A DNA stretch of 64,000 nucleotides from Pollutibacter soli. Its GTDB lineage: Bacteria; Bacteroidota; Bacteroidia; Chitinophagales; Chitinophagaceae. The stretch lies in contig JARJHS010000001.1 of NCBI GenBank assembly GCA_029269725.1, positions 1-64,000 of the forward strand. Reading direction: 5' to 3'. The position numbers and the translations under genes are program-made. Of this stretch, positions 169 through 49,476 are shown one piece after another (position 1 is the stretch's first letter; each line of letters begins with the position of its first letter). The notes under the pieces are model-generated. The model saw nothing but the letters and a program-made list of their open reading frames with translations. It did not search any database and had not been told where the DNA came from.

Positions 169-241
169 GCCAACTTAGCTCAGCTGGTAGAGCATTTCAT
201 TCGTAATGAAAGGGTCGTCGGTTCGAATCCGATAGTTGGCT
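169..241 (+). tRNA. tRNA-Thr, anticodon CGT
   Basis: The 73 bases fold as a full cloverleaf. The acceptor arm pairs GCCAACT (169-175) with AGTTGGC (234-240), the D arm is GCTC/GAGC, the anticodon arm TTTCA/TGAAA encloses loop TTCGTAA with anticodon CGT, and the T arm carries the standard GGTTCGAATCC. No CCA is encoded. The 3' part doubles as the attachment site of the element to its right. Integration kept the tRNA intact because the element carries the same 3' sequence. Confidence 0.95.
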
Positions 242-242
242 C
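194..242 (+). repeat. Left attachment site (49-bp direct repeat, tRNA 3' half)
   Basis: Positions 194-242 are identical to 8672-8720 in the same orientation. The repeat starts in the anticodon stem and ends one base past the tRNA. Bases outside differ on both sides (C193 versus A8671, T243 versus A8721), which fixes the ends. This is the layout left when a tyrosine recombinase integrates into a tRNA gene. Confidence 0.9.
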
Positions 243-286
243 TGCAAAACAAATAAATAGATATAATCGTAGGTTGTTATTTGATG

Positions 287-309
287 TTTGACATACCATT
301 TGCATACTA
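287..309 (+). repeat. Left copy of 23-bp element-end repeat (possible integrase arm site)
   Basis: The segment with core ACATACCATTTGCATAC matches 8527-8549 with one mismatch in the same orientation. Each copy holds two 8-9 bp half units (ACATACYAT and GCATACTA) spaced 11 bp apart. It lies 45 bp inside the left att repeat and overlaps the end of the HEPN gene. Paired short direct units near att sites are typical of arm-type binding sites of lambda-like integrases; binding here is inferred. Confidence 0.55.
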
Positions 310-906
310 TTGCTCGCCAAGCGGTATTTTCTTTAACTTTTTAAATTGTTCGATAAATTCTGCAGTATTAATTCCTGAGACACTATGATAATCAGGATAG
401 GTATACTCCCCGGTCGTTTCTTCAAATTCTCTTACTAAACCTTCAAGTAGTGCAATCATTTTTTGCAATTCATTGTACTCGGAAAGTGTAAATAGTCTTT
501 TAACAAACGGATCAGAATTCGGTGTTCCATCTAAATGCGCAAATTCTTTATCTCGTTTATCTCTTAAAACATGATAGATATTCAAACTTTGAACAAGATC
601 GAAGGTGTCTTTCCAAGATTGGAATTCAAGATAAGGAGGATCTGCTTTTTCAAGATCATTAAGTAAGCCGCCAATTGATGCTGCGTTACTCGTGGGATAT
701 TTTTTACTAGGTGCATCTGTCAACTTACATAATTCCATTATTAGGATGTAAGTAAAGCCAAGGAGATAATGTATAAAAAACGTTCTTTCGGCTAAAGTGA
801 ATCTAGAATCGGCAGTACTTTCTAAAATTTGCTGAGTTTCTTCAAATGCTTTTTTACTCCAATTAAATACAGCTGAAATTGATTCTATACGTTGTTTGAT
901 GGTCAT
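307..906 (-). CDS. HEPN-domain protein, AbiU2-like (defence candidate)
   Basis: The product is a soluble, all-helical protein of about 199 residues. The mid-C region has RDKRDKEFAH, which fits the HEPN motif R-x4-6-H. The preceding helix FIHYLLGFTYILIMELCKL matches the pattern of AbiU2-type HEPN proteins, which are linked to abortive infection and RNA cleavage. I chose ATG 906; the longer start at 939 would add 11 residues and run across a palindrome. It sits alone at the left end of the satellite, where such islands usually carry accessory cargo. There is no antitoxin or nucleotidyltransferase partner next to it. The fold assignment is fairly secure; the antiphage role is inferred from family and location. 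Confidence 0.65.
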   Translation of the reverse strand: MTIKQRIESISAVFNWSKKAFEETQQILESTADSRFTLAERTFFIHYLLGFTYILIMELCKLTDAPSKKYPTSNAASIGGLLNDLEKADPPYLEFQSWKDTFDLVQSLNIYHVLRDKRDKEFAHLDGTPNSDPFVKRLFTLSEYNELQKMIALLEGLVREFEETTGEYTYPDYHSVSGINTAEFIEQFKKLKKIPLGEQ

Positions 907-908
907 AA

Positions 909-925
909 ATTTGTTTGAAACAAAT
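909..925. promoter_or_regulatory. Palindrome just upstream of the HEPN start (operator candidate)
   Basis: ATTTGTTTGAAACAAAT is a perfect 8-bp inverted repeat around one central G, three bases upstream of ATG 906. A repressor bound here would cover the start region. No regulator can be assigned from sequence alone. Confidence 0.35.
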
Positions 926-952
926 CTAATAATTACCAAAATGAATAAAGAA

Positions 953-972
953 CCCCGGCATTTCTACCGGGG
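953..972 (-). terminator. GC-rich hairpin between HEPN and capsid genes
   Basis: CCCCGG (953-958) pairs with CCGGGG (967-972) around an 8-base loop. It lacks a clear U tract, so it may be a weak terminator or an RNA end protector between two same-strand genes. Confidence 0.4.
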
Positions 973-1008
973 CGACCAGAACAAAGAAACCACAAAATAT
1001 TTTTAATG

Positions 1009-1038
1009 AAGCCCCAACCTTAGACAAGGTCGGGGCTT
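1009..1038 (-). terminator. Strong hairpin after the capsid gene
   Basis: AAGCCCC (1009-1015) pairs with GGGGCTT (1032-1038), then ACCTT with AAGGT after one mismatch, with a 4-base loop. It lies 37 bp beyond the capsid stop codon. With the second hairpin at 953-972 it separates the capsid transcript from the HEPN gene. Confidence 0.65.
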
Positions 1039-1074
1039 ATAGTTCACGCTAAAATCTAAACAACGAAAGAAATA

Positions 1075-2106
1075 TTATTCATCACCTCTGACAAAAGCCT
1101 TAGGTGAGTATATCATGATATCCGCACGGCTTTCAGCACGCACGGTTACGTTGTTCTTAATGAAATCGTCACCGGTTTCAGCCGTTCTGATATTGAATGC
1201 TTCAGCTTGTGCAATGGCAGCTTTACCAAAGTCACCTACCCAGACCTTACCAGAAGCAACCAGATTCGATTTAAACACCGGCAAACCTGCTACCATTACC
1301 TGACCGCTGTCAGAAACCTTTACACCTGCCGGCGTGCTGTAATTGCTCGGTGCAGTTTTCAAAATCTTAACCCATGCTGATGGCCTTAATATAACCGCGC
1401 TGGCAGTATAACCGCTGGCCTCCACCTGTGCAACGTAATCCAGAATCTTATCAATTGTTTCCGTTGCCGATGTACTTCCCGTATCTGCTACAGATGTTAG
1501 CGAAGTGAAAAAACTCTGATCTTCAGCAGTTAGATAATCCTCAATCAAAGACTGAGAAATATATGCAGCAAGGAAAGGCAAATCTTCAAGCATTACGCGT
1601 GATACCTTTACCCAGGCAGCCAAATACTGCAGGGTCTGATTGATCATAAGCACGTCGTAATCCATTTGGCTTTTCTCTGTGTTTTCAGCAACACGGGAGA
1701 AAGATCCCTCTGAAATTGTTGTGGGGGTTCTAGGGTAGGCTATGTTACCCGTCGCAGTCTGTACCGTGGTAATCAGATTACGTAAATGAAATTTGTTAGT
1801 TGGTCGCTGTGGCGTGCCTGCATAACTTCGGATACTATCCCCTGTTAGGTTTGATCCTATGGTCATGTTTCCGGCAACCTTTAGTTGCATAACATGCTCC
1901 TGACCTTTTAGAAGTGCCTTAATCTGTGAAGCATTCTTAATAAGTGCTTCAGTTACTTTTGCCTGCAACGTGTAACCTTCTCCGTTACCGCCTAATATGC
2001 GGCCTCCCTTTGCCTGAAGTTCATGCACACGATCTTCTAGCGGCTTAAGCCTGTTGTCTATTTTGTCATTGATCTCATCGATCAATGCAAATGTTTCTTT
2101 TGACAT
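1075..2106 (-). CDS. Phage major capsid protein, HK97 fold
   Basis: The protein has 343 residues. Residues 1-90 are charged and partly coiled-coil, in the position of a delta/scaffold segment. The conserved core follows: N-arm about 95-118, E-loop with NIAYPRTPTTISEGSF (about 121-136), spine helix about 176-200, then the A-domain with ASAVILRPSAWVKILK (235-250) and the closing stretch with GLPVFKSN, KVWVGDF, NNVTVRAESRAD and SPKAFVRGD. These are standard features of tailed-phage HK97-type capsids. Unusually, no portal, protease, large terminase or tail gene is nearby. It is a full-length gene with a hairpin after it, so it looks maintained. It may build small satellite capsids or interfere with helper assembly. 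Encapsulins share the fold but normally lack this phage-type N-arm and neighbours. Confidence 0.88.
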   Translation of the reverse strand: MSKETFALIDEINDKIDNRLKPLEDRVHELQAKGGRILGGNGEGYTLQAKVTEALIKNASQIKALLKGQEHVMQLKVAGNMTIGSNLTGDSIRSYAGTPQRPTNKFHLRNLITTVQTATGNIAYPRTPTTISEGSFSRVAENTEKSQMDYDVLMINQTLQYLAAWVKVSRVMLEDLPFLAAYISQSLIEDYLTAEDQSFFTSLTSVADTGSTSATETIDKILDYVAQVEASGYTASAVILRPSAWVKILKTAPSNYSTPAGVKVSDSGQVMVAGLPVFKSNLVASGKVWVGDFGKAAIAQAEAFNIRTAETGDDFIKNNVTVRAESRADIMIYSPKAFVRGDE

Positions 2107-2304
2107 TTGGATAAATAAATTACTTGTTAAATAATTCAGATTTGCTCCGGCGCAAGACTTAAAACAAGTGGTGGCTTCTTTGGTGCATTATCGGCTCCGG
2201 GGAGGAGTGATGTAGCGAGCTCCGAGTTGATAGCGTTGTGTGGTGGCTATGCCTCTGTTTTACCATACAAAAATACGAAATTTGTAGTTGCAAAACGTTG
2301 TGCT

Positions 2305-2880
2305 ATGCGTGAACAATTAGTTAACCAGATTGAAAGCCTGTTGTCAGGAAAAGCAAAACCGCTGGATACATTACCGCCGGTATTTTGGATGATTGACAAT
2401 GCCACAGGACTATATTACACCAACATAAACGGCAAACGGATTGCCCTGCCACGTGAAAAGATTCAGGCATTCCATGACGCAATGGGAGGTAAGAACTATG
2501 TCGTATTTGTGGAAGAAAGATATTCTGAATCACTAAGCAGTAATGAAGATACCGTACCCAATGACAGCCTGATACTGGCTGCTCCCGGTAAGCCGACCAT
2601 TGTACTTGCATTTGATCAATGTTGTGATGAACTAACAGAGGAAGTGCAGGTATCTGTACCCACCACCACGTTTATTCAGGCTGATCCTGTTCAGAAAAAT
2701 GATGAACAAGAACCATTGCCAGAACTCAGACCACACACAAAGAAATGCAAGTGTAGTGAATGCAACCCACCACCCCCCGAACCGTTGCAGCCGTTATGCC
2801 AAGAAATACGGATATCCGTTTCCGGGAATGCCAGATACAACAATTCCGAGGAAGTGTTTGGTTGGGCTGAATGGTTCTAA
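2305..2880 (+). CDS. Unknown satellite protein with Cys/Pro-rich tail
   Basis: This is the only substantial plus-strand gene in the element. The chosen ATG at 2305 begins MREQLVNQIESLL and gives 191 residues; an upstream ATG at 2227 would add 26 poorly protein-like residues. The first 90 residues look globular (PPVFWMIDNATGLYYTNING). The tail has KKCKCSECNPPPPEP, with the CxC and CxxC pattern of a small metal knuckle. It ends 4 bp into the convergent gene at 2877. A run of six C at about 2773 could shift translation into another open frame that continues to 2923. I do not recognise the family; opposite orientation suggests separately transcribed cargo. Confidence 0.55.
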   Translation: MREQLVNQIESLLSGKAKPLDTLPPVFWMIDNATGLYYTNINGKRIALPREKIQAFHDAMGGKNYVVFVEERYSESLSSNEDTVPNDSLILAAPGKPTIVLAFDQCCDELTEEVQVSVPTTTFIQADPVQKNDEQEPLPELRPHTKKCKCSECNPPPPEPLQPLCQEIRISVSGNARYNNSEEVFGWAEWF

Positions 2881-3068
2881 TTGTGCCTTATGGCTGCGTT
2901 ATAGCGATCCTCAGACAATTTAACGGCCTCCTGCAGCCAATGGAGACGATCGTCCAGTATGCCTGCTATATCGGCCTGTATTACGATTTGCATCGCCTCT
3001 GGTAAAGTGCAGTTCATTACTTCCTGAAGTGTTTGCGCTGTGTTAAGATACTTCTCAATTCTACTCAT
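2877..3068 (-). CDS. Small helical protein coupled to the DUF5681-like gene
   Basis: The product has 63 residues and is predicted to be almost entirely helical (MSRIEKYLNTAQTLQEVMNC at the start). Its ATG overlaps the stop of the upstream gene by 4 bp (ATGA), so translation is probably coupled and the two proteins may act together. I recognise no family. Its place between the packaging-like gene and the capsid gene makes a packaging or capsid accessory role possible, but that is only inferred. Confidence 0.6.
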   Translation of the reverse strand: MSRIEKYLNTAQTLQEVMNCTLPEAMQIVIQADIAGILDDRLHWLQEAVKLSEDRYNAAIRHN

Positions 3069-3427
3069 AACTCAATTTTAATTGTTTCTGATTGTTTAAG
3101 ATTTTCCAGTGCTTTAGTGGTTGCCGCATCAATGATCATTTGTTGCGTCGCTGCCAGCTGATCGTCGGTGAAGTGCTCTATTGAACCTTCGACCTTCATT
3201 GCTGTTGCCTGCAACTTCGGGGTAACATATGCCTGTGCCTCCAAGTAAAAACGTGCTTGCTCCCATGCAGACAGTTCGGATAATATTCGCTCCATGCGTT
3301 TATGGGTGTAGAATCCTTTCAGTAACCGCTCAATGCGGCCTCTGTTGGTTGTAGCAGGATTTTTAAAGCTCGGTTGCCCTTTAGGGTTAGGGCTTTTCAT
3401 CCCTTTCACCCATGCTGGATTTGCCAT
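3065..3427 (-). CDS. DUF5681 / small-terminase-like protein
   Basis: The product has 120 residues. It opens with ANPAWVKGMKSPNPKGQP, the short basic Gly/Pro/Lys motif typical of DUF5681-type proteins that occur beside phage terminases. A basic helical middle follows (RGRIERLLKGFYTHKRMER) and then SAWEQARFYLEAQAYVTPKL, like the segment seen in that family. Small terminases choose the DNA to be packaged, and islands of the SaPI type carry their own copy to redirect helper packaging. No large terminase is present. A partial copy of the element-end repeat lies about 22 bp before the start codon. Family placement is moderately sure; function is inferred. Confidence 0.6.
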   Translation of the reverse strand: MANPAWVKGMKSPNPKGQPSFKNPATTNRGRIERLLKGFYTHKRMERILSELSAWEQARFYLEAQAYVTPKLQATAMKVEGSIEHFTDDQLAATQQMIIDAATTKALENLKQSETIKIEL

Positions 3428-3448
3428 GTATATGAAGTTTGGTATTTA

Positions 3449-3464
3449 AAATAGTATGTCAAAT
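3449..3464 (-). promoter_or_regulatory. Partial copy of the element-end repeat upstream of the DUF5681 gene
   Basis: On the minus strand the 16 bases ATTTGACATACTATTT match the first 16 bases of the copy around 8526-8549. The site is 22-37 bp upstream of ATG 3427. The same sequence before the integrase and before a possible packaging operon suggests a shared operator. Confidence 0.45.
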
Positions 3465-3504
3465 TGTTGATCGTGTTTGTAAGTCAATGTTAACCATTTG
3501 GTTG

Positions 3505-3651
3505 TCAGGTAGTTCCTTTCATTAAGCATGAAAGCGGGAATTGTTTCACGTGTGTTCGCGTGGCGTTGTCGCAGTTGTCACACTGAATAATCCGCTTGTC
3601 TATACAAGCATAATCGTACGAGGTTACGAGGTTCATTTCCTGATTATTCAT
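3505..3651 (-). CDS. Possible 48-aa Cys-containing protein
   Basis: An ATG at 3651 opens a 48-residue frame ending in TGA at 3505. The product contains CIDKRIIQCDNCDNATRTH, with a CxxC pair and two more Cys/His positions that could form a small zinc site. Its first codons overlap two iterons (3617-3633), so the open frame could be accidental. It lies between the primase gene and the DUF5681 operon in the same orientation as both. Confidence 0.3.
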   Translation of the reverse strand: MNNQEMNLVTSYDYACIDKRIIQCDNCDNATRTHVKQFPLSCLMKGTT

Positions 3652-3928
3652 TTGGATTTTTTTGTCTAGGTTTTCATGTTATTATTCTTTCTTTTTTATA
3701 TTTCTCCTAAATAGAAAAGTTAGTTCGTAAGCTCGTAATCCTTTCGAAATCGGCATCCGGCTTGGATTTCCGATACGAGGTTGAAAAAAAGGAGAGCTCG
3801 TGGAAGTTCGTAAAAACGCTTTCATTTTAAAATGACTGTACATTTTCCATCGGTTGCCAGTGTTCAATCTCATCGTTTACGAGGTTGTCAGGCTCGTTTA
3901 CGACCTTCCATTTTTCATAGGCTCGTAA
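3617..3928. other. Putative replication origin: iterons flanking an AT-rich core
   Basis: The short word TACGAGGTT and its inverse (G)CTCGTAA recur, exactly or nearly, at 3617-3625, 3625-3633, 3723-3730, 3731-3738, 3774-3782, 3796-3803, 3806-3813, 3878-3886, 3892-3907 and 3921-3928. The block 3634-3722 between the first pair and the rest is strongly AT-rich. The last copies lie inside the 3' end of the primase-helicase gene. Iterons on both sides of an AT-rich core directly after a rep/primase gene is the known layout of SaPI origins. Function is inferred from architecture. Confidence 0.6.
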
Positions 3929-6292
3929 AATTTCATCCTTGAAATGGTACGCCATCTTACCATTAAAACCATTCGTAGTATCCAGGCTAATTCCCATTTC
4001 TTTACACCACCGGATGACCCATTTGGAAAACGTTTCCACCTTCAGTTTTTCAAAGTCAGGATACATTTCTGTAAACTGCTTCTTAAAGTCTTCCTTAATT
4101 ATTTTGACAGGGATTTTATTCTTTACGGTCATATAGTCCATCCATTCAATAAAATTCCGGTTAGTATCCTGTATAAGCTTCTTCTTGTGGAGATTGATAT
4201 TTTCGGGTTCAATAAGCCCTTCAGACAAGTATAGCTGGATACACTCCACCATATAGTTGTCAAACCGGCACCACTCTGCATTATCCCAGTCATCAAAGAA
4301 TCTATGATGAAAGTGGTCCATCGGCGTGAATGAGCTGCTAAACGTATCCATCAATTCAAGGTCAAATCTTCGCCGTAAGTGGCTGCTTCCGCTGCCCCTA
4401 ATTGCGTAGTTTGTTGTAATCAAAAATTTGGGCGACTCTGAATATGGAATAGTAAATGAAGTTTTGTTTTTCTTTTCCACAGTCAGCCCATCGGTTGTCG
4501 GTGAAAAAAGCGGCTCCAGATCAAAGTTCTTTTCCGCGTCCTCAATTGCAATTATTTGAGTGCCCTCTGAAAACTGTTGAAAAGCAAAACTCTTTTTCGT
4601 GCTGAAGTTTTTCCCATCGACACAGATAATCTTTACGATCTTATCGCAAAATTTAATTAGCAGCCCTTTACCCGTTCCGCCCTGAGGCTCGCTGTCATTC
4701 TGATCAAAGGATGCATCGGTAAAGATAGGTATCCGAGGACTCGCCGGATCTTTGTACGGGTGGCACAAATATCCAATTGCACTCCGGAATGAGTTGAGGT
4801 TTTTCCCCGCAATAAGTTTGATAAACTCTGCGGCATCTCCATTACTTTCACCTGCATGGAATTCTCTATTCTTAATTTGATCCGCCCATATAAGACCATC
4901 CAGATTATCATAAGGTATTAACTCCTGTTTATCTGTGATTTTTAAAGCTCCGTTTTTGTAGAAAACAAATGAAGTCTGGGAAGTGCATCTAAGCATTTGC
5001 GTAATATCCAGGTCTTCCAATAAAGTGATGATACCAACCTTTGAAAATATAGTACTGAGGTTTCGAAGAAAGTGGTTATATACTTTCTCTGTTACGTCGT
5101 TTTTTACAAAATCGCAGAATAATTTTTTTAGTTTGTCGATAGGGAAAATATGCACGACGTTCCCCACAATCTGAACGATTATAAAGTCATCATCCGACTC
5201 TGATCGCCTGAATTTTCTAAATCCAGTTCTTGTTGTCCATTCAGCTATCGCACCGAGATTAATTTCAACCTTGCTAGATTCAGATATTGTATAAAATTCT
5301 GACTGTTCTGAATTGAAAACTCCGAAGCCTGTTTCAGCCAAGTATTTAGCTGCGGCAAATTTATCTCCATCATGTTCAAGATATGCCTTCAGTTTAAATG
5401 CTGAAATGGGTTCCTCATAGGGAAACTCTGTAGACGTGGTGAAGAGGTAAAGTGTATTAGATTCTTTGAATAGCGTCCCAGAACTTTTGGATGAAGCTCC
5501 TGGGCGTCGCAATATAATTCTATCACCATCCTCATTTACGATTGTCCATCCTCTGGTTGTAAGTTGTTCCAACATCCATTCCCAATTGTGCTGCCTGTTG
5601 AAAATTACCCAAGGTGCATCCTCCCGGCTCTGTTGCCTTTTGGATAATCCGACAACTTCAGGTACTTCCACTTGGTTGAATGTTTTACAAATGCCGAGAA
5701 TAATTTGCCTTTCTTCGGGAGTTATCTCAATTATTGATTCAAGATCACCACTATAAAAGTCATAGCCCTTCGATGGTGGCACGGGGGTATAGTCTCCGGT
5801 GCCAAGCAGTTCGATCAGAGGTTTTACTGTATCGCCTTTTGCTCGTTCCTGAGTTGTTGCGGGCCGTTCTGCGAGCTTCTTCTTAGCGCTTGTAACATCA
5901 CATTTGAAGAATAAATGGTAGCCTTTGTTTGGAGTTTTGATAATAAGTAGGCCTTTTATGATATCCGGAAGGGTGTGCTCCAGAATATTCATAAACGTAG
6001 AAAACAGCTTTCCTGTAAGGTCATACTTACAATCAAAGTCAAGACAATTCAATTTAAGCTTCGATTCAATTAAAATTGCGACGCCGTCTGTATTGTCTCG
6101 GAGATAGAAATTAATATTACCAGCATGAAGTGGTAAAGTTTTCGCCTTGTTCACACCGCCCTTTTTAAAACCAGTAGGTTCTTTCCCGGCAATAGGGATG
6201 ACGTTGTATCCTAAGTGCATTAGTTCAATTGCATCACCTATTGTAACTTTGTCTTGAACTTCTCTTACTACGGCTGTCTGTGTGTTACTCAT
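3827..6292 (-). CDS. Bifunctional primase-polymerase / helicase
   Basis: This 821-residue protein has an N-terminal archaeo-eukaryotic-type primase-polymerase domain: LDFDCKYD supplies the D-x-D metal ligands (D85, D87), GYHLFFK the conserved His (H126), and YTPVPPSKG follows. The C-terminal half is a D5-like/SF3-type ATPase: Walker A GGTGKG (538-543), Walker B IIAIEDA (580-586), a sensor Asn in FLITTNY (about 628) and an arginine-finger segment SHLRRRFD. Such proteins prime and unwind their own replicon in satellites and plasmids. It is last in an operon of four overlapping genes, and an iteron cluster overlaps its 3' end, so it probably recognises that origin. Confidence 0.88.
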   Translation of the reverse strand: MSNTQTAVVREVQDKVTIGDAIELMHLGYNVIPIAGKEPTGFKKGGVNKAKTLPLHAGNINFYLRDNTDGVAILIESKLKLNCLDFDCKYDLTGKLFSTFMNILEHTLPDIIKGLLIIKTPNKGYHLFFKCDVTSAKKKLAERPATTQERAKGDTVKPLIELLGTGDYTPVPPSKGYDFYSGDLESIIEITPEERQIILGICKTFNQVEVPEVVGLSKRQQSREDAPWVIFNRQHNWEWMLEQLTTRGWTIVNEDGDRIILRRPGASSKSSGTLFKESNTLYLFTTSTEFPYEEPISAFKLKAYLEHDGDKFAAAKYLAETGFGVFNSEQSEFYTISESSKVEINLGAIAEWTTRTGFRKFRRSESDDDFIIVQIVGNVVHIFPIDKLKKLFCDFVKNDVTEKVYNHFLRNLSTIFSKVGIITLLEDLDITQMLRCTSQTSFVFYKNGALKITDKQELIPYDNLDGLIWADQIKNREFHAGESNGDAAEFIKLIAGKNLNSFRSAIGYLCHPYKDPASPRIPIFTDASFDQNDSEPQGGTGKGLLIKFCDKIVKIICVDGKNFSTKKSFAFQQFSEGTQIIAIEDAEKNFDLEPLFSPTTDGLTVEKKNKTSFTIPYSESPKFLITTNYAIRGSGSSHLRRRFDLELMDTFSSSFTPMDHFHHRFFDDWDNAEWCRFDNYMVECIQLYLSEGLIEPENINLHKKKLIQDTNRNFIEWMDYMTVKNKIPVKIIKEDFKKQFTEMYPDFEKLKVETFSKWVIRWCKEMGISLDTTNGFNGKMAYHFKDEILRAYEKWKVVNEPDNLVNDEIEHWQPMENVQSF

Positions 6293-6572
6293 CGTCAGCC
6301 GTTTTTATTTTCCTCAAGGGAAGTGAAAAAAGTAATGACGTATCGAAAGCAGATTCTTCAGCTCTTTTGCGCCAATAGCGGTAATGTTTAGATGTAAATG
6401 GAAGATGTTCATATTCTGTACCATCAACGGTTAACCATTTCACGCACTCGCTTACGTCGTTAACCTTAAACGCTTCACGCGCCGCCCTACATATTGGGCA
6501 TCCTGCAGGCAGTACATACCTCGAGTTTTTGAAGTGATAGGCGCGAACCGGCAAATAAATTAAATTACTCAT
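6285..6572 (-). CDS. Small Cys-motif protein in the replication operon
   Basis: The product has 95 residues. A single CPICRAA motif near residue 25 could be half of a metal site, followed by a basic helical segment (SKHYRYWRKRAEESAFD). It overlaps the primase start by 8 bp and the upstream HTH gene by 4 bp, so it is co-translated with both. I do not recognise the family. A replication accessory or regulator role fits the context but is not shown by the sequence. Confidence 0.65.
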   Translation of the reverse strand: MSNLIYLPVRAYHFKNSRYVLPAGCPICRAAREAFKVNDVSECVKWLTVDGTEYEHLPFTSKHYRYWRKRAEESAFDTSLLFSLPLRKIKTADDE

Positions 6573-6868
6573 TTGCTCACGCCCCCCTTCGTGTATCGTT
6601 TTCCGTTAGAGCGTATAAAACTATCCAACTCGGATTTAAAAAAGTACAAACGGCGGCCGATCTTATGGGAAGGTATCTTTCGGCTGCTGGCTCCGTTGTA
6701 AAGCGTTTGTTCTGCAATACCGAGGTATTCAGCGGCGGGCTTTAATAAAAGTGCCGATTCTTTTTGTGGTGGTGCTTTTAATGCCTGTAGTTCTGCTTTA
6801 AGTGCAGCAACTTCATTCTGCAACTCTCGAAAAGCAGTGGGCAACGTCTCAAATGTTATGTTAGACAT
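6569..6868 (-). CDS. Helix-turn-helix protein, excisionase/HTH_17 type
   Basis: The 99-residue product begins with a short coiled coil (RELQNEVAALKAELQALKA), which probably mediates dimerisation. A winged HTH of the excisionase/MerR-like class follows: PAAEYLGIAEQTLYNGAS, then KIPSHKIGRRLYFFKSELDSF, the typical wing. Proteins of this kind bend DNA at att sites for excision or act as small regulators. It overlaps its neighbours by 4 and 8 bp inside the replication operon. Confidence 0.8.
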   Translation of the reverse strand: MSNITFETLPTAFRELQNEVAALKAELQALKAPPQKESALLLKPAAEYLGIAEQTLYNGASSRKIPSHKIGRRLYFFKSELDSFIRSNGKRYTKGGVSK

Positions 6869-7058
6869 TTGTAGCCGCCTCCTGTCGGTTGCTATTGGCT
6901 TTCTGCCAACGAGAAATTTCTTCTGGATCGAATGTAACGCGGCCTGAGGGATAGGCCTGAAGGAATGGAATGCGCCCTTGTTTTTTTAACCGGTATATGT
7001 GGGCAATGGAAAGTCCGGTTTGCTTTGCAACGCTTTTTGCGTTAACGTGTTTAATCAC
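6861..7058 (-). CDS. AlpA-like / HTH_17 DNA-binding protein
   Basis: The 65-residue product is almost only a winged HTH: NAKSVAKQTGLSIAHIYRLK as the helix-turn-helix, then GRIPFLQAYPSGRVTFDPEE as the wing and ISRWQ as the closing helix. This matches small AlpA/excisionase-type regulators of satellites, which control integrase expression or excision. It is the first gene of the four-gene replication operon, directly downstream of a good Bacteroidota-type promoter, so it may switch the whole operon. Confidence 0.8.
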   Translation of the reverse strand: MIKHVNAKSVAKQTGLSIAHIYRLKKQGRIPFLQAYPSGRVTFDPEEISRWQKANSNRQEAATNV

Positions 7059-7140
7059 TTCTGTTCATAATAGATAGTGTGCCTTTTAAATTTTGATTTA
7101 ATAAATATCCAAGATGCTACTGAAAACTAATTTACTTATA

Positions 7141-7170
7141 CAAATTTACGCAACGATTTGCAACAATCAA
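7141..7170 (-). promoter_or_regulatory. Bacteroidota-type promoter of the satellite replication operon
   Basis: Read on the minus strand, TTG (7170-7168), a 19-base spacer and TAAATTTG (7148-7141) fit the known -33 TTG and -7 TAnnTTTG boxes of this phylum. A 5' leader of about 75 bases would precede ATG 7058. The spacer has GCAACGATTTGCAAC, with repeated GCAAC words that could be regulator contacts. Confidence 0.55.
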
Positions 7171-7201
7171 CGTTTGTTTTATTAACATAATATGTGAATT
7201 A

Positions 7202-8527
7202 TTATGCGATTCGCAGAATAGGTGCTGGCTTCTTTTCTTCACGGAATGCTGTCAGGTTTGCTAAATACATTTTCATTTCCGCATCATTGTAAGGTGAGGT
7301 ATATTCTTCAGTTACTCCACGTTGTGAGTGGGAGAGTGCTTGTTGTCTTGCGGAAAATGGTACACCTCTTTTTTTCAAAACGTCGGCGGCTGTGTAGCGG
7401 GCATACATAGTTGTAATTTCTTTGCCGATCGTTTCCATTCCCACTATGTGCATCCTCTTATTAATCCACTTGGTGAAGTTTTGCGTTTTGTCTACAAACT
7501 CCTTGTCGCTTTCGTTTCCTGTGACCTTACCAAATACATAAATATTATCACGGCTTCCGTATGTTTCAATGATCCGGGAAATATCATCCGTGACAGGTAT
7601 GCGGGTCTCAATTACTTTGCTTGTCCTGCCTTCGCTCTTTTTTCTTTTAAATACAATAACCTCATCGTTCTCAATATCCGTCCACTTCAGCCGGATCATA
7701 TCAGCTATGTTCATTCCCCCTGTCAAGTATGAGAAAAGCCAGTAATCCCGAGCCTCTGTGTTTTCGCCGTTGTATTTATCCAGTTTTTTCAGTTCGTCCT
7801 CTGATAAATTCCATCCCGTTCGTCTTACCGTCTCAATCTGGAACGTATGGCGGCCTTTTCTTCCCTTATTTCCAAACGGAACCTTTTCTGCAGGATATAA
7901 CCCCTGATGTATTGCATCGTTTAATAAAACCCGAATATTGGCCATATAGGCATGGATTGTTCCTTTACTTGCTTTATTTCCGATCAGCCATTCCTCATAG
8001 TCGCGAATGAATTTAATGTCAATATTGGCGATGGAAAAGGCAGCTGTGTACTTGAAGGTTTTGTTACTGTTATCATACACCACCTTTGCCGGTGAAAGGA
8101 ATTTATCCAGACTTCCCATTAATGCACCATAACGGATATAGCTATTTTGCTTTTTCTCCCGGAGCAGGTATTTCCGGTAATCGTCAATAGCTGCCTTTAT
8201 TGTAAGAACATCAACTTTCATTTTCTTCTTTGGTCTGTCGATCAGCTTCTCTTTAAACTGTCCAGCTTCAAAGGTGCTCATGCCATTGATAATATCCTTT
8301 GCCCGCTTTTCAATTTCATTCAACTTCAGCCGTATATCCTTGAACTTGTCACGCTGCCTGGCTCCCAACTTTTCCCCGTAATCCTCCCATTCTTTTACAG
8401 TCATGGAAATTCCTGTCGGATAGTACAATTGAGTTTTATAATTGGTCACTCTGAGCCGAACAGGGTAGGTATCTGAATCCTTTTTTTTGTATCTGGTATC
8501 GTGGATTAGTTTTGTAGTAACGTTCAT
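7202..8527 (-). CDS. Tyrosine recombinase integrase
   Basis: The product has about 441 residues, the usual length for Bacteroidota integrases. An N-terminal arm-binding domain (PVRLRVTNYKTQLYYPTGI) is followed by a SAM-like core-binding domain (about 105-210) and the catalytic domain. The active-site Arg of box 2 is in TTMYARYTAADVL (about 377), with His in ALSHSQRG (about 400) and Tyr in TEEYTSPY (about 409). The first catalytic Arg is replaced by Asn in TGGMNIADM (about 273), seen in one branch of this phylum's integrases. I chose ATG 8527 (MNVTTKL); ATG 8545 would place the 23-bp end repeat inside the coding region. It lies next to the right att site and surely moves this element. Confidence 0.92.
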   Translation of the reverse strand: MNVTTKLIHDTRYKKKDSDTYPVRLRVTNYKTQLYYPTGISMTVKEWEDYGEKLGARQRDKFKDIRLKLNEIEKRAKDIINGMSTFEAGQFKEKLIDRPKKKMKVDVLTIKAAIDDYRKYLLREKKQNSYIRYGALMGSLDKFLSPAKVVYDNSNKTFKYTAAFSIANIDIKFIRDYEEWLIGNKASKGTIHAYMANIRVLLNDAIHQGLYPAEKVPFGNKGRKGRHTFQIETVRRTGWNLSEDELKKLDKYNGENTEARDYWLFSYLTGGMNIADMIRLKWTDIENDEVIVFKRKKSEGRTSKVIETRIPVTDDISRIIETYGSRDNIYVFGKVTGNESDKEFVDKTQNFTKWINKRMHIVGMETIGKEITTMYARYTAADVLKKRGVPFSARQQALSHSQRGVTEEYTSPYNDAEMKMYLANLTAFREEKKPAPILRIA

Positions 8528-8549
8528 TTGACATACTATTTGCATACTA
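8527..8549 (+). repeat. Right copy of 23-bp element-end repeat, at the integrase start
   Basis: It matches 287-309 with one mismatch in the same orientation and abuts or overlaps the integrase start codon. If the integrase binds it as an arm site, binding would also block integrase expression, giving autoregulation. It lies about 120 bp inside the right att repeat. Confidence 0.55.
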
Positions 8550-8671
8550 AATTAGTAAATATCCGCGATATGAAAAGTAAATGAACATTCGCAAAATATC
8601 ATAAAATTCAGTACCAGAGTGGGTTACAGCCTGATTACTTACTTTTTGCAATTTGCCAGATTCACTGAAAA

Positions 8672-8720
8672 ATTTCATTCGTAATGAAAGGGTCGTCGGT
8701 TCGAATCCGATAGTTGGCTC
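8672..8720 (+). repeat. Right attachment site (49-bp tRNA-Thr 3' duplicate)
   Basis: This is an exact copy of 194-242. Upstream bases cannot form the acceptor or D arm, so it is a tRNA fragment and not a second gene. From 8721 to 9166 no convincing gene is visible; a 60-codon minus-strand frame there has no recognisable features. Confidence 0.9.
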
Positions 8721-32162: not shown

Positions 32163-32448
32163 GTATTTTTTGTTTTTAATAGTGAGCGGTATTCCGGTAG
32201 CCGGTGGCAATAACTGCAGTTGAGATCAGGAATTACTAAAATATGGAATTCCGGTTAAGAATGATGAGCTGAAGTGATGCATGATTGGAGATGATAATGT
32301 ATTGCATCAAAACGCCTTCGGCGTGCCCATGGATCGCCTGCGGCGATGAAACAGCCATCACGCGGACTACGCAGAGAAACAGCCCTCGGAGTGCGCGGAG
32401 TGAAGTTCAATTTATAAAGTAACCGGACTGGATGATTGCAGAAACATC

Positions 32449-32677
32449 TGCATAAATCACGTCTGATCTGCGGGAAATTTTTGCCTGCGGATTTTACAGA
32501 AGGGCACAGACTTGAGGGGGAAGGTTACAAATAAAATGATCGATCTGCGTAAATCAGCGCTGATCTGCGGGAAATTTTTGCCTGCGGATTTTACAGAAGG
32601 GCACAGACTTGAGGGGGGAGGTTACAAATAAAATGATCGATCCGCGTAAATCAGCGCTGATCTGCGGGAAATTTTTT
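32449..32677. repeat. 97-bp tandem repeat, about 2.3 copies
   Basis: The unit TGATCTGCGGGAAATTTTTG recurs at 32464, 32561 and 32658, exactly 97 bases apart. Copies 1 and 2 are nearly identical over the full unit and the third is truncated. The array is the main content of the 535-bp gap between the M14 and cupin genes. Part of the rest (32318-32400) is a GC-rich stretch with GCCTGCGGCG-type words, no gene. Confidence 0.9.
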
Positions 32678-38403: not shown

Positions 38404-38449
38404 GTAGTAAGAAGTAAGTAGTAAGTAGTAAGTAGTAAGTAGTAAGTAT
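38404..38449 (+). repeat. (GTAAGTA)n heptamer array
   Basis: About five in-phase copies of GTAAGTA follow a degenerate copy, just upstream of the doxX start (minus strand gene). Confidence 0.85.
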
Positions 38450-38533
38450 TAACAGCCCGTGCAAGATAATTCAGTGATCGTATAAGGCAGCGGGCAACAG
38501 GCAGCAGATCACCGCGATCAACGTTTTAGAAGA

Positions 38534-38596
38534 GAATACGGAATACGGAATACAGGATACAGGAAGAAAACTGAAAACTGAAAACCGAAAACTGTC
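38534..38596 (+). repeat. Nine in-phase degenerate heptads
   Basis: The units GAATACG GAATACG, GAATACA GGATACA, GGAAGAA, AACTGAA AACTGAA, AACCGAA and AACTGTC run without a gap. The word changes midway but the 7-bp register does not. Confidence 0.8.
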
Positions 38597-38730
38597 AGAG
38601 CCTTGCCAGGTTAACTGTATAGTATTTACTGCGTGTTGCTGCTGCCTTTAATAAAATCATTTGATTAGTGTCAACGCCGATATCAGTTTGGTGATTTGAA
38701 TTTATCTGCTGCCTGCTTACCGCTGCCTCC

Positions 38731-38807
38731 TAACAACTAACAACTAACAACTAACAACTAACAACTAACAACTAACAACTAACAACTAACAACTAACAAC
38801 TAACAAC
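38731..38807 (+). repeat. (TAACAAC)11 perfect heptamer microsatellite
   Basis: Eleven exact copies of TAACAAC (77 bp) lie about 200 bp upstream of the TPR gene. Copy number changes of 7 bp would alter promoter-region spacing. The 630-bp gap 38374-39003 otherwise holds only related heptad words. Confidence 0.95.
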
Positions 38808-39003
38808 TCTTTAACAAAACATTATCCGCCTCCATTAATCCATCCATTTACTTTGCCGTCAATTTATCCACAGCACTGTTAGTATAGTTTTTGCTGGGTG
38901 CCATAGTCATAAAGTACTTTCGACGTTGGTTTTAACACAATACTATCATTTTTATTAAAATACGATCTGTACGATGTCGTTACTCCTGCAACATGGTCTT
39001 ATC

Positions 39004-48332: not shown

Positions 48333-48388
48333 GTTCAACGTTCAACGTTCAACGTTAAACGTTGAGCGTTGAGCGTTGAACGTTAGAC
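48333..48388 (+). repeat. (GTTNNAC)8 heptad array between kinase and murQ
   Basis: Eight contiguous 7-bp units, all GTTNNAC (GTTCAAC x3, GTTAAAC, GTTGAGC x2, GTTGAAC, GTTAGAC), fill the gap between the two genes. The first and last halves are also inverse to each other, so the RNA could form a hairpin within the operon. Confidence 0.9.
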
Positions 48389-49255: not shown

Positions 49256-49476
49256 GGCAATAGTGAGAAGGCAATAGGAAGAATACAGAATACATAATTC
49301 AGAATCGGGATATAGGTAAATTTCGAAAACTGAAAACTGGAAAAACAGAACAGTAACTTCCTTTGAACTTTGAACCGGCTGTTTGAACGAACAACGAACA
49401 ACGAACAACGAACAACGAACAACGAACAACTGGCTGTTTCTGACAACTACAATGAACAATGAACTATGAACTAGCA
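49256..49476 (+). repeat. Cluster of heptad arrays, including (GAACAAC)6
   Basis: 49256-49318 holds nine in-phase units (GGCAATA, GTGAGAA, GGCAATA, GGAAGAA, TACAGAA, TACATAA, TTCAGAA and so on). 49389-49430 is six exact copies of GAACAAC. 49449-49476 has ACAATGA ACAATGA, ACTATGA ACTAGCA and runs to two bases before the next ATG. Confidence 0.85.

Follow-up and report, generated by a model that had tools for sequence, protein, structure and literature searches.

The first 64,000 nucleotides of contig JARJHS010000001.1 of Pollutibacter soli (Bacteroidota, Chitinophagaceae), hereafter the window, carry an island of about 8.5 kb (positions 194 to 8720) which, judging from its genes and from those of related islands, is very probably a phage satellite. 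The island is integrated at a tRNA-Thr gene and combines an integrase, a primase-helicase, a DUF5681-like gene and a single gene for a homologue of HK97-type major capsid proteins. As an explanation of the whole, we favor with moderate confidence a tRNA-integrated satellite with the layout of the Gram-negative phage-inducible chromosomal islands (GN-PICIs), whose helper-driven cycle would include co-assembly of the satellite capsid protein.

Integration site and gene content

Exact direct repeats of 49 bp (194 to 242 and 8672 to 8720) lie at the ends of the island; one copy is the 3' end of the tRNA-Thr(CGT) gene, which stays intact (169 to 242, ARAGORN), and the right copy corresponds to the same 3' 49 nt. 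The host genome measures 6.1 Mb, and since the first base of the window is also the first of its contig, the left flank before the tRNA gene is limited to 168 bp. Ten genes lie between the attachment (att) sites, all with open reading frames (ORFs), and nine of the ten are on the minus strand. A sequence-only reading of this DNA had proposed the att repeats, an integrase at one end, small helix-turn-helix (HTH)/excisionase genes, a primase-helicase adjoined by iterons and one HK97 capsid gene, all of which are borne out by the following features, with the qualification that the smaller, AlpA-like of the two HTH genes falls just under its Pfam cut-off.

169 to 242, plus strand: tRNA-Thr (CGT), integration site (ARAGORN)
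194 to 242, plus strand: attL, 49 bp, 3' end of the tRNA (exact direct repeat)
287 to 301, plus strand: 15-bp motif TTTGACATACTATTT with 1 mismatch, near attL (motif scan)
307 to 939, minus strand: HEPN_AbiU2-like protein, 210 aa, cargo (Pfam E 5.9e-7, 29.6 bits against a cut-off of 26.8)
1075 to 2106, minus strand: HK97-fold major capsid protein homologue, 343 aa (Pfam PF05065, E 4.6e-23; phrog_10, 5.5e-27)
2305 to 2880, plus strand: homologue of the gene following DUF5681 in related satellites (hhalign 91.8, E 7.4e-7; ORF open from 2227, start 2305 chosen)
2877 to 3068, minus strand: 63-aa ORF, function not assigned (ORF list; Pfam and PHROGs scanned)
3065 to 3427, minus strand: DUF5681-like protein, proposed small terminase (alignments with satellite relatives; relatives before or fused to the large terminase, TerL)
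3449 to 3463, minus strand: 15-bp motif TTTGACATACTATTT, exact, just upstream of the DUF5681 gene (motif scan)
3617 to 3886, plus strand: four TACGAGGTT repeats, proposed replication origin, spanning the 3' end of the primase gene and the bases just beyond it
3827 to 6292, minus strand: primase-polymerase/DUF5906 helicase, 821 aa (Pfam Prim-Pol 4.7e-7, DUF5906 4.9e-6; phrog_28855, 5.5e-77)
6285 to 6572, minus strand: 95-aa protein, function not assigned (Pfam match below cut-off only)
6569 to 6868, minus strand: HTH_17 regulator (Pfam 1.1e-11)
6861 to 7058, minus strand: AlpA/excisionase-like HTH protein, 65 aa (Phage_AlpA 4.5e-4, 20.5 bits against a cut-off of 21; phrog_66, 8.5e-9)
7202 to 8545, minus strand: tyrosine integrase with Arm5 (arm), SAM_5 (SAM-like) and catalytic domains (Pfam)
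8527 to 8541, plus strand: 15-bp motif TTTGACATACTATTT, exact, at the integrase start (motif scan)
8672 to 8720, plus strand: attR, 49-bp tRNA-Thr 3' fragment (exact direct repeat)

The layout reported for GN-PICIs, with int, AlpA, a primase followed by the origin, genes in one direction and late genes (PMC10111431, PMC6092414), is largely paralleled in the island. In particular, the integrase and att sites occupy a host locus, and the genes run mostly in one direction. Next to int, where GN-PICIs have an AlpA or MerR regulator, stands the 65-aa protein that falls just short of the Phage_AlpA threshold and matches the excisionase/regulator family phrog_66. Downstream of the primase (Prim-Pol plus DUF5906), four 9-bp repeats at the end of the gene form a candidate origin, and the phage structural and lytic set is missing, a lone capsid gene being found in many GN-PICIs. 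Pfam and PHROGs gave no match to portal, large terminase, protease, tail, lysis or conjugation families among the ten island proteins, and none to a head-size scaffold of the Sid/Psu type known from P4-like satellites. The same two databases showed that the components which a capsid-forming PICI (cf-PICI) has of its own, namely portal, head protease, connectors, HNH and TerL, are absent from the island.

The repeat TACGAGGTT (9 bp) occurs in four exact copies in the 64 kb, every one within 3617 to 3886, and in 30 Markov controls of the same length no 9-mer reached four copies inside 300 bp. The real window has 22 such 9-mers, the other 21 of which sit in heptamer arrays at 38.4 to 38.8 and 49.4 kb. 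When one mismatch is allowed, the count over the window (12 against 9.2 expected) is not above chance, and only the clustering of exact copies stands out. The 15-bp motif TTTGACATACTATTT has three sites in 64 kb at up to two mismatches, where 0.38 are expected and none of 100 shuffles reached three; it may be an integrase-arm or regulator site. A sigma-70 promoter scan was uninformative (19 found, 20.8 expected). The window holds five heptamer tandem arrays with differing units (38404-38452, 38566-38594, 38730-38808, 48333-48384 and 49386-49430) and a 97-bp tandem repeat at 32446-32676 (2.4 copies, 96% matches).

In the stretches around the tRNA of three congeners, the tRNA-Thr 3' end is present in a single copy (exact in G677 and G687, with 2 mismatches in G684), and the fetched stretches gave no integrase match; these flanks are not orthologous to those of the window, so that the observation is supportive only.

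The HEPN gene, which the sequence-only reading had not listed, sits between the capsid gene and attL. Its product has an R-D-x4-H stretch at residue 129, of the kind typical of HEPN RNases, and this cargo is possibly anti-phage. PADLOC, applied to 10 proteins, left 8 without a match, the window HEPN protein among these, and a comparison of that protein with solved structures gave nothing below E 0.67.

Related islands and the DUF5681-capsid cassette

Direct pattern scans found no close relative of the capsid in genome or viral contigs and none of the primase in viral contigs, so that profile searches were needed. The window capsid matched 10 of 294 Chitinophagaceae genomes, its own included, and the surroundings were viewed in all ten. 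The capsid lies in a satellite-type island in five: the window, genome G134, and three other genera of the family, whose islands are the following.

L047: tRNA-Lys, 48-bp repeat, 8.9 kb
L050: tRNA-Ser, 25-bp repeat, 9.2 kb
L049: tRNA-Leu, 14-bp repeat at the tRNA 3' end, 8.3 kb

The genes of these three islands run in one shared order, from integrase through regulator, replication gene, DUF5681 and small ORF(s) to capsid, and no portal, TerL, protease or tail gene was recognised between their repeats by BLAST against the reference set or by PHROGs, some ORFs below 100 aa having only been read. The sequence-only reading had named related islands with portal, terminase and tail genes at this site as the mark of a degraded prophage; the islands found in the three genera lack all of these in recognisable form, an outcome contrary to that condition. 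The replication genes vary: the window and L047 have Prim-Pol, and L049 and L050 have an ATPase together with a primase-like gene. The copy in G134 is split by the assembly (L085 stops inside a capsid gene and L082 starts inside one), and a second DUF5681 island of that genome, L086, is likewise cut at a contig end. In the other five genomes (L046, L048, L051/L084, L052 and L053) a head protease adjoins the capsid; PHROGs confirmed it in L046, L048, L051 and L084, and BLAST did so in L052 and L053.

Between L085 and L049 the DNA is 94% identical over 999 aligned bases, from inside the DUF5681 gene via the next ORF into the capsid gene, and L082 matches L049 at 87% over 666 bases, covering the capsid end and beyond. 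Outside this block, integrase identity is 24%, the primase alignment covers 80 residues only (30%), and the L085 helicase gave no match. Such DNA identity, despite so divergent integrases, indicates at the sequence level that the DUF5681-ORF-capsid block moves as a cassette between islands. The ratio of nonsynonymous to synonymous substitution rates (dN/dS) is 0.08 for the C-terminal part of the capsid (119 codons), the one capsid piece open to comparison, which is thus under purifying selection, and 0.40 for the ORF after DUF5681 (173 codons).

In the window, the homologue of this ORF (2305 to 2880) is inverted, lying on the plus strand opposite the nine other island genes, and is not inverted in eight aligned relatives; its hhalign control, against the window capsid, gave 0.4. 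The 63-aa ORF next to it was considered as the counterpart of an 87-aa ORF of L047, an idea that was dropped because the two gave no alignment.

A DUF5681 profile of four rows matched 14 of 394 genomes of the family. No capsid match was obtained in the DUF5681 islands L088, L091, L093, L094 and L095, nor in L039, which was found by the primase search. With a profile of 14 rows, 9 of 385 genomes of the phylum were matched, the own genome included. Integration sites in these sets are as follows.

L088: tRNA-Val, 47-bp repeat
L094: 43-bp repeat extending into tRNA-Leu
L039: tRNA-Arg, 47-bp repeat
L238: tRNA-Thr, 46-bp repeat, 5 kb (14-row profile)
L235: tRNA-Arg, 18-bp repeat (14-row profile)

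The satellite-type islands L089 and L090 share 97% identity across 2.9 kb surrounding the integrase, yet carry different large genes after DUF5681; for both genes the top PHROG has no assigned function, and weaker matches point to tape-measure proteins for L089 (5.6e-7) and to a virion structural protein for L090 (1.4e-9). L035 has TerL and a gene weakly resembling a packaging protein, without capsid. L092 and the profile loci L232, L233, L234, L236 and L237 from outside the family may be either satellites or phages.

The host genome holds three further tRNA islands of satellite type, of which L185 and L186 are mutually related, measure 15 to 16 kb and gave no capsid match.

L032 (G000:C33:25538-36455): tRNA-Val; relative of the window primase-helicase, OloB-like defence protein (PADLOC 2.3e-107)
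L185 (G000:C33:199862-215713): tRNA-Lys; small terminase (TerS), TerL, portal, tape-measure-like gene
L186 (G000:C32:114875-129898): tRNA-Arg; TerS, TerL, portal

The packaging candidate and the capsid

On comparison with its relatives, the DUF5681-like protein is likely to be a small terminase. The name DUF5681 rests on homology: Pfam gives no DUF5681 for the window protein itself, and 7 of 14 aligned satellite members, the window not among the 7, match the family at E of 0.01 or less. In four checked contigs the gene adjoins or is fused to TerL. In the IMG/VR contig L065 the DUF5681 domain (37.3 bits, over the cut-off) forms the N-terminus of a large terminase, fused with Terminase_6N, and in the IMG/VR contig L231 a DUF5681-like gene (22.5 bits, under the cut-off) lies directly upstream of a TerL gene (over the cut-off) and overlaps its start. 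Moreover, in the annotated phages L214 and L215 a DUF5681-like gene directly precedes and overlaps the terminase gene, and these two genes align with the satellite profile with hhalign probabilities of 96.4 and 96.0 (E 1e-9 and 4e-9), where the control, the gene before TerL in L046, gave 0.4. The genes labelled TerS in L046 and L097 bear that label by position only, with no Pfam terminase small subunit in either, and the L046 gene is unlike the DUF5681 profile. The guess of the sequence-only reading that this is a packaging gene is strengthened by relatives placed before or fused to TerL. The DUF5681-like proteins have a conserved N-terminal GRPKG, which we take to resemble an AT-hook. Small terminases are a means by which some PICIs redirect packaging (PMC6092414).

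A 16-row alignment profile of the window capsid matches the HK97 capsid structure 3qpr at 8.9e-44. The capsid profile found 431 relatives in IMG/VR, and among the best 80, which were retained, 66 also match TerL, portal or protease on the same piece, 14 have capsid, connector or tail matches only, and none has an integrase or DUF5681 match to the reference set. Since these relatives mostly occur with phage genes, the capsids of the satellites are members of a family of phage capsids. When 28 capsids were placed in a tree, the five from satellites (window, L047, L049, L050 and L097) required four label changes, at least three of which are forced by well-supported branches; branches in this tree are long, and a single gain with two losses could in principle account for three forced changes. 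A single clade of satellite capsids was rejected by the approximately unbiased (AU) test, both for the five (p 2.5e-44) and for the four without L097 (p 5.8e-55), so that repeated capture from phages appears to be the simplest reading. Identity to phage capsids is about 57% for L047 and at most 36% for the window; the L049 and L050 capsids share 38% identity.

The locus L097 (6590-12766), from Fodinibius roseus (Balneolota), contains, close together, an integrase, an HTH gene, a replication initiator, one capsid gene and TerL, the last two verified. No recognised portal and no att repeat were found there, and it is perhaps another capsid-carrying satellite.

Possible cycle, alternatives and known satellites

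It is possible to hypothesize a cycle in which a helper phage would induce the element, the integrase and the AlpA-like protein would excise it, and the primase-helicase would start its replication at the 3617-3886 repeats. As small terminase, the DUF5681 protein would then steer the helper large terminase to satellite DNA, and the satellite capsid would co-assemble with the helper capsid and the helper portal into a small head fit for about 8.5 kb, like Ccm of SaPIbov5, the helper providing portal, protease, TerL and tail. The HEPN gene may shield the host against other phages. Co-assembly and DUF5681 packaging are favored because the layout fits the GN-PICIs and because Ccm, a capsid homologue 23% identical to the capsid protein of its helper (PMC6893505), occupies pentamers and makes small T=4 heads (PMC8569155). 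On the use of the window capsid for co-assembly and head-size redirection, which we propose by analogy with Ccm, we are evenly divided.

Several observations weigh against this interpretation. For the DUF5681 gene, the tblastn hits leading to L214 and L215 were weak (E 2e-3 and 2e-2), Pfam detects the domain neither in the window protein nor in L214 and L215, an alignment of the family against solved structures returned no small terminase (best E 0.11, a designed protein), and dN/dS between L049 and L085 is 0.90 over 101 codons, with no constraint evident from this pair. The inverted ORF could mean damage. In the host genome, the Pfam portal family (PF04860) had no hit over its cut-off, two weaker hits lying in L185 and L186, the phrog_2 type of TerL, the only type searched, had its two hits in the same islands, and the window capsid found itself alone; no helper prophage is evident, because neither a portal nor a phrog_2 TerL was found outside L185 and L186. 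Finally, an E. coli PICI capsid gene is reported as dispensable for transfer, and its deletion left interference unrelieved (PMC10111431, PMC6092414).

That the satellite forms a whole shell from its own capsid, with portal, protease, TerL and tail from the helper, seems to us unlikely. The window capsid does align with whole HK97-type capsid proteins, and cf-PICIs and Streptomyces satellites are described as building their own heads (PMC10690885), but no portal, protease or connector was found in the window island and none was recognised in L047, L049 and L050, and a foreign shell would have to suit the helper portal and protease. Less probable again is a capsid homologue that chiefly interferes, as a poison of helper head assembly or as a decoy, with the satellite riding in helper-sized heads. 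EcCICFT073, which has a capsid homologue yet appears packaged in full-size heads (PMC6893505), and the HEPN gene adjoining the capsid would agree with such a role, against which stand the unrelieved interference upon deletion of the E. coli PICI capsid (PMC6092414) and the sharing of one moving cassette by capsid and DUF5681.

A degraded prophage that lost most late genes, to which the phage-type capsid and integrase and the inverted ORF could point, is highly improbable: the same reduced set lies between repeats at differing tRNA genes and with differing replication genes, the cassette moves between islands, and the ten window genes are open. Furthermore, since the AU test rejects one satellite-capsid clade, the same reduced state has been reached with different capsids. 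We grant equally little to an integrative mobilizable or conjugation-borne island with a capsid gene acquired by chance. In Bacteroidota such islands commonly carry HTH_17 regulators and integrases that target tRNA sites, but Pfam and PHROGs found no relaxase or conjugation family among the ten window proteins, and the DUF5681-capsid cassette recurs.

P4-like satellites have a tRNA site and origin repeats, to which the tRNA site and the candidate origin repeats of the window island correspond. Further parallels are an AlpA-like regulator (Vis in P4-like satellites) and replication by a protein of primase type (PMC6092414), whereas the window island has no Sid/Psu-type match and carries a capsid homologue instead. 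The GN-PICIs (EcCICFT073, PmCI172) resemble it in int, a primase with the origin (a candidate one in the window) downstream, mostly one direction and often one major capsid gene; they have an AlpA-type regulator and sometimes terS, as well as accessory and putative phage-resistance genes (PMC6092414, PMC10111431). Different from these, the window element resides in another phylum, its AlpA-like match is just below the cut-off, it measures 8.5 kb against 10 to 20 kb, and it has DUF5681 in the proposed small-terminase role within a DUF5681-ORF-capsid cassette. SaPIbov5 likewise has a single capsid homologue, and it depends on helper capsid proteins, as the window element would; SaPIbov5 is a staphylococcal cos-type element with Stl repressor, whereas the window island shows no divergent repressor pair and has a small-terminase-like gene. 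The cf-PICIs too carry an HK97 capsid gene, and their capsids also spread over several phage capsid clades (PMC11389934), but they are described with protease, portal, connectors, HNH, TerS and TerL (PMC10690885), and the window island has a TerS-like gene only. Thus, of the satellite logic put forward by the sequence-only reading, the compact satellite in Bacteroidota is supported by the same block in three genera, and the comparison with cf-PICIs fails for lack of portal, protease, connectors, TerL and HNH. EfCIV583 was dropped from the comparison, having no capsid gene (PMC6893505, PMC3675006), and the Charybdis elements (PMC12324425) and a protein-language-model study (PMC10187409) were set aside as unrelated.

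The suggestion of that reading that such content is without precedent was not upheld: a lone capsid gene is reported in 21 of 29 reference GN-PICIs (PMC10111431) and in SaPIbov5 as Ccm (PMC8569155), and because lone-capsid satellites are known, this kind of element is already known. In the titles and abstracts searched there was no description of such elements in Bacteroidota, a search that covered subscription papers thinly, so that the 2023 satellite census and cf-PICI papers could mention them; the string 'Bacteroid' is absent from the main text of PMC6092414 and PMC10111431. As far as these searches go, the Bacteroidota host, DUF5681 in a small-terminase role and the swapped cassette are new.

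We also entertain, as a speculation that is rather unlikely to hold, a Bacteroidota satellite family with a swappable slot after the DUF5681 small terminase for one helper-virion part, be it a capsid, a tape-measure-like or another virion protein, with sisters having TerS and TerL or TerS, TerL and portal, each swapping in its own version. The four tRNA islands of the host hold complementary parts (a capsid in one, portal and terminase in two, one of these with the tape-measure-like gene, and a defence gene in the fourth), and might build particles jointly.

If the favored explanation is right, the island would extend lone-capsid PICI-type satellites into Bacteroidota, would suggest that DUF5681, a Pfam family with no assigned function, consists of small terminases, and would show a packaging-plus-capsid cassette moving among satellites with unrelated integration and replication genes. 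The related islands would offer a natural series for comparing head-size control by capsid homologues with Ccm of SaPIbov5, and they mark candidate satellites in the Chitinophagaceae, a family of environmental bacteria.

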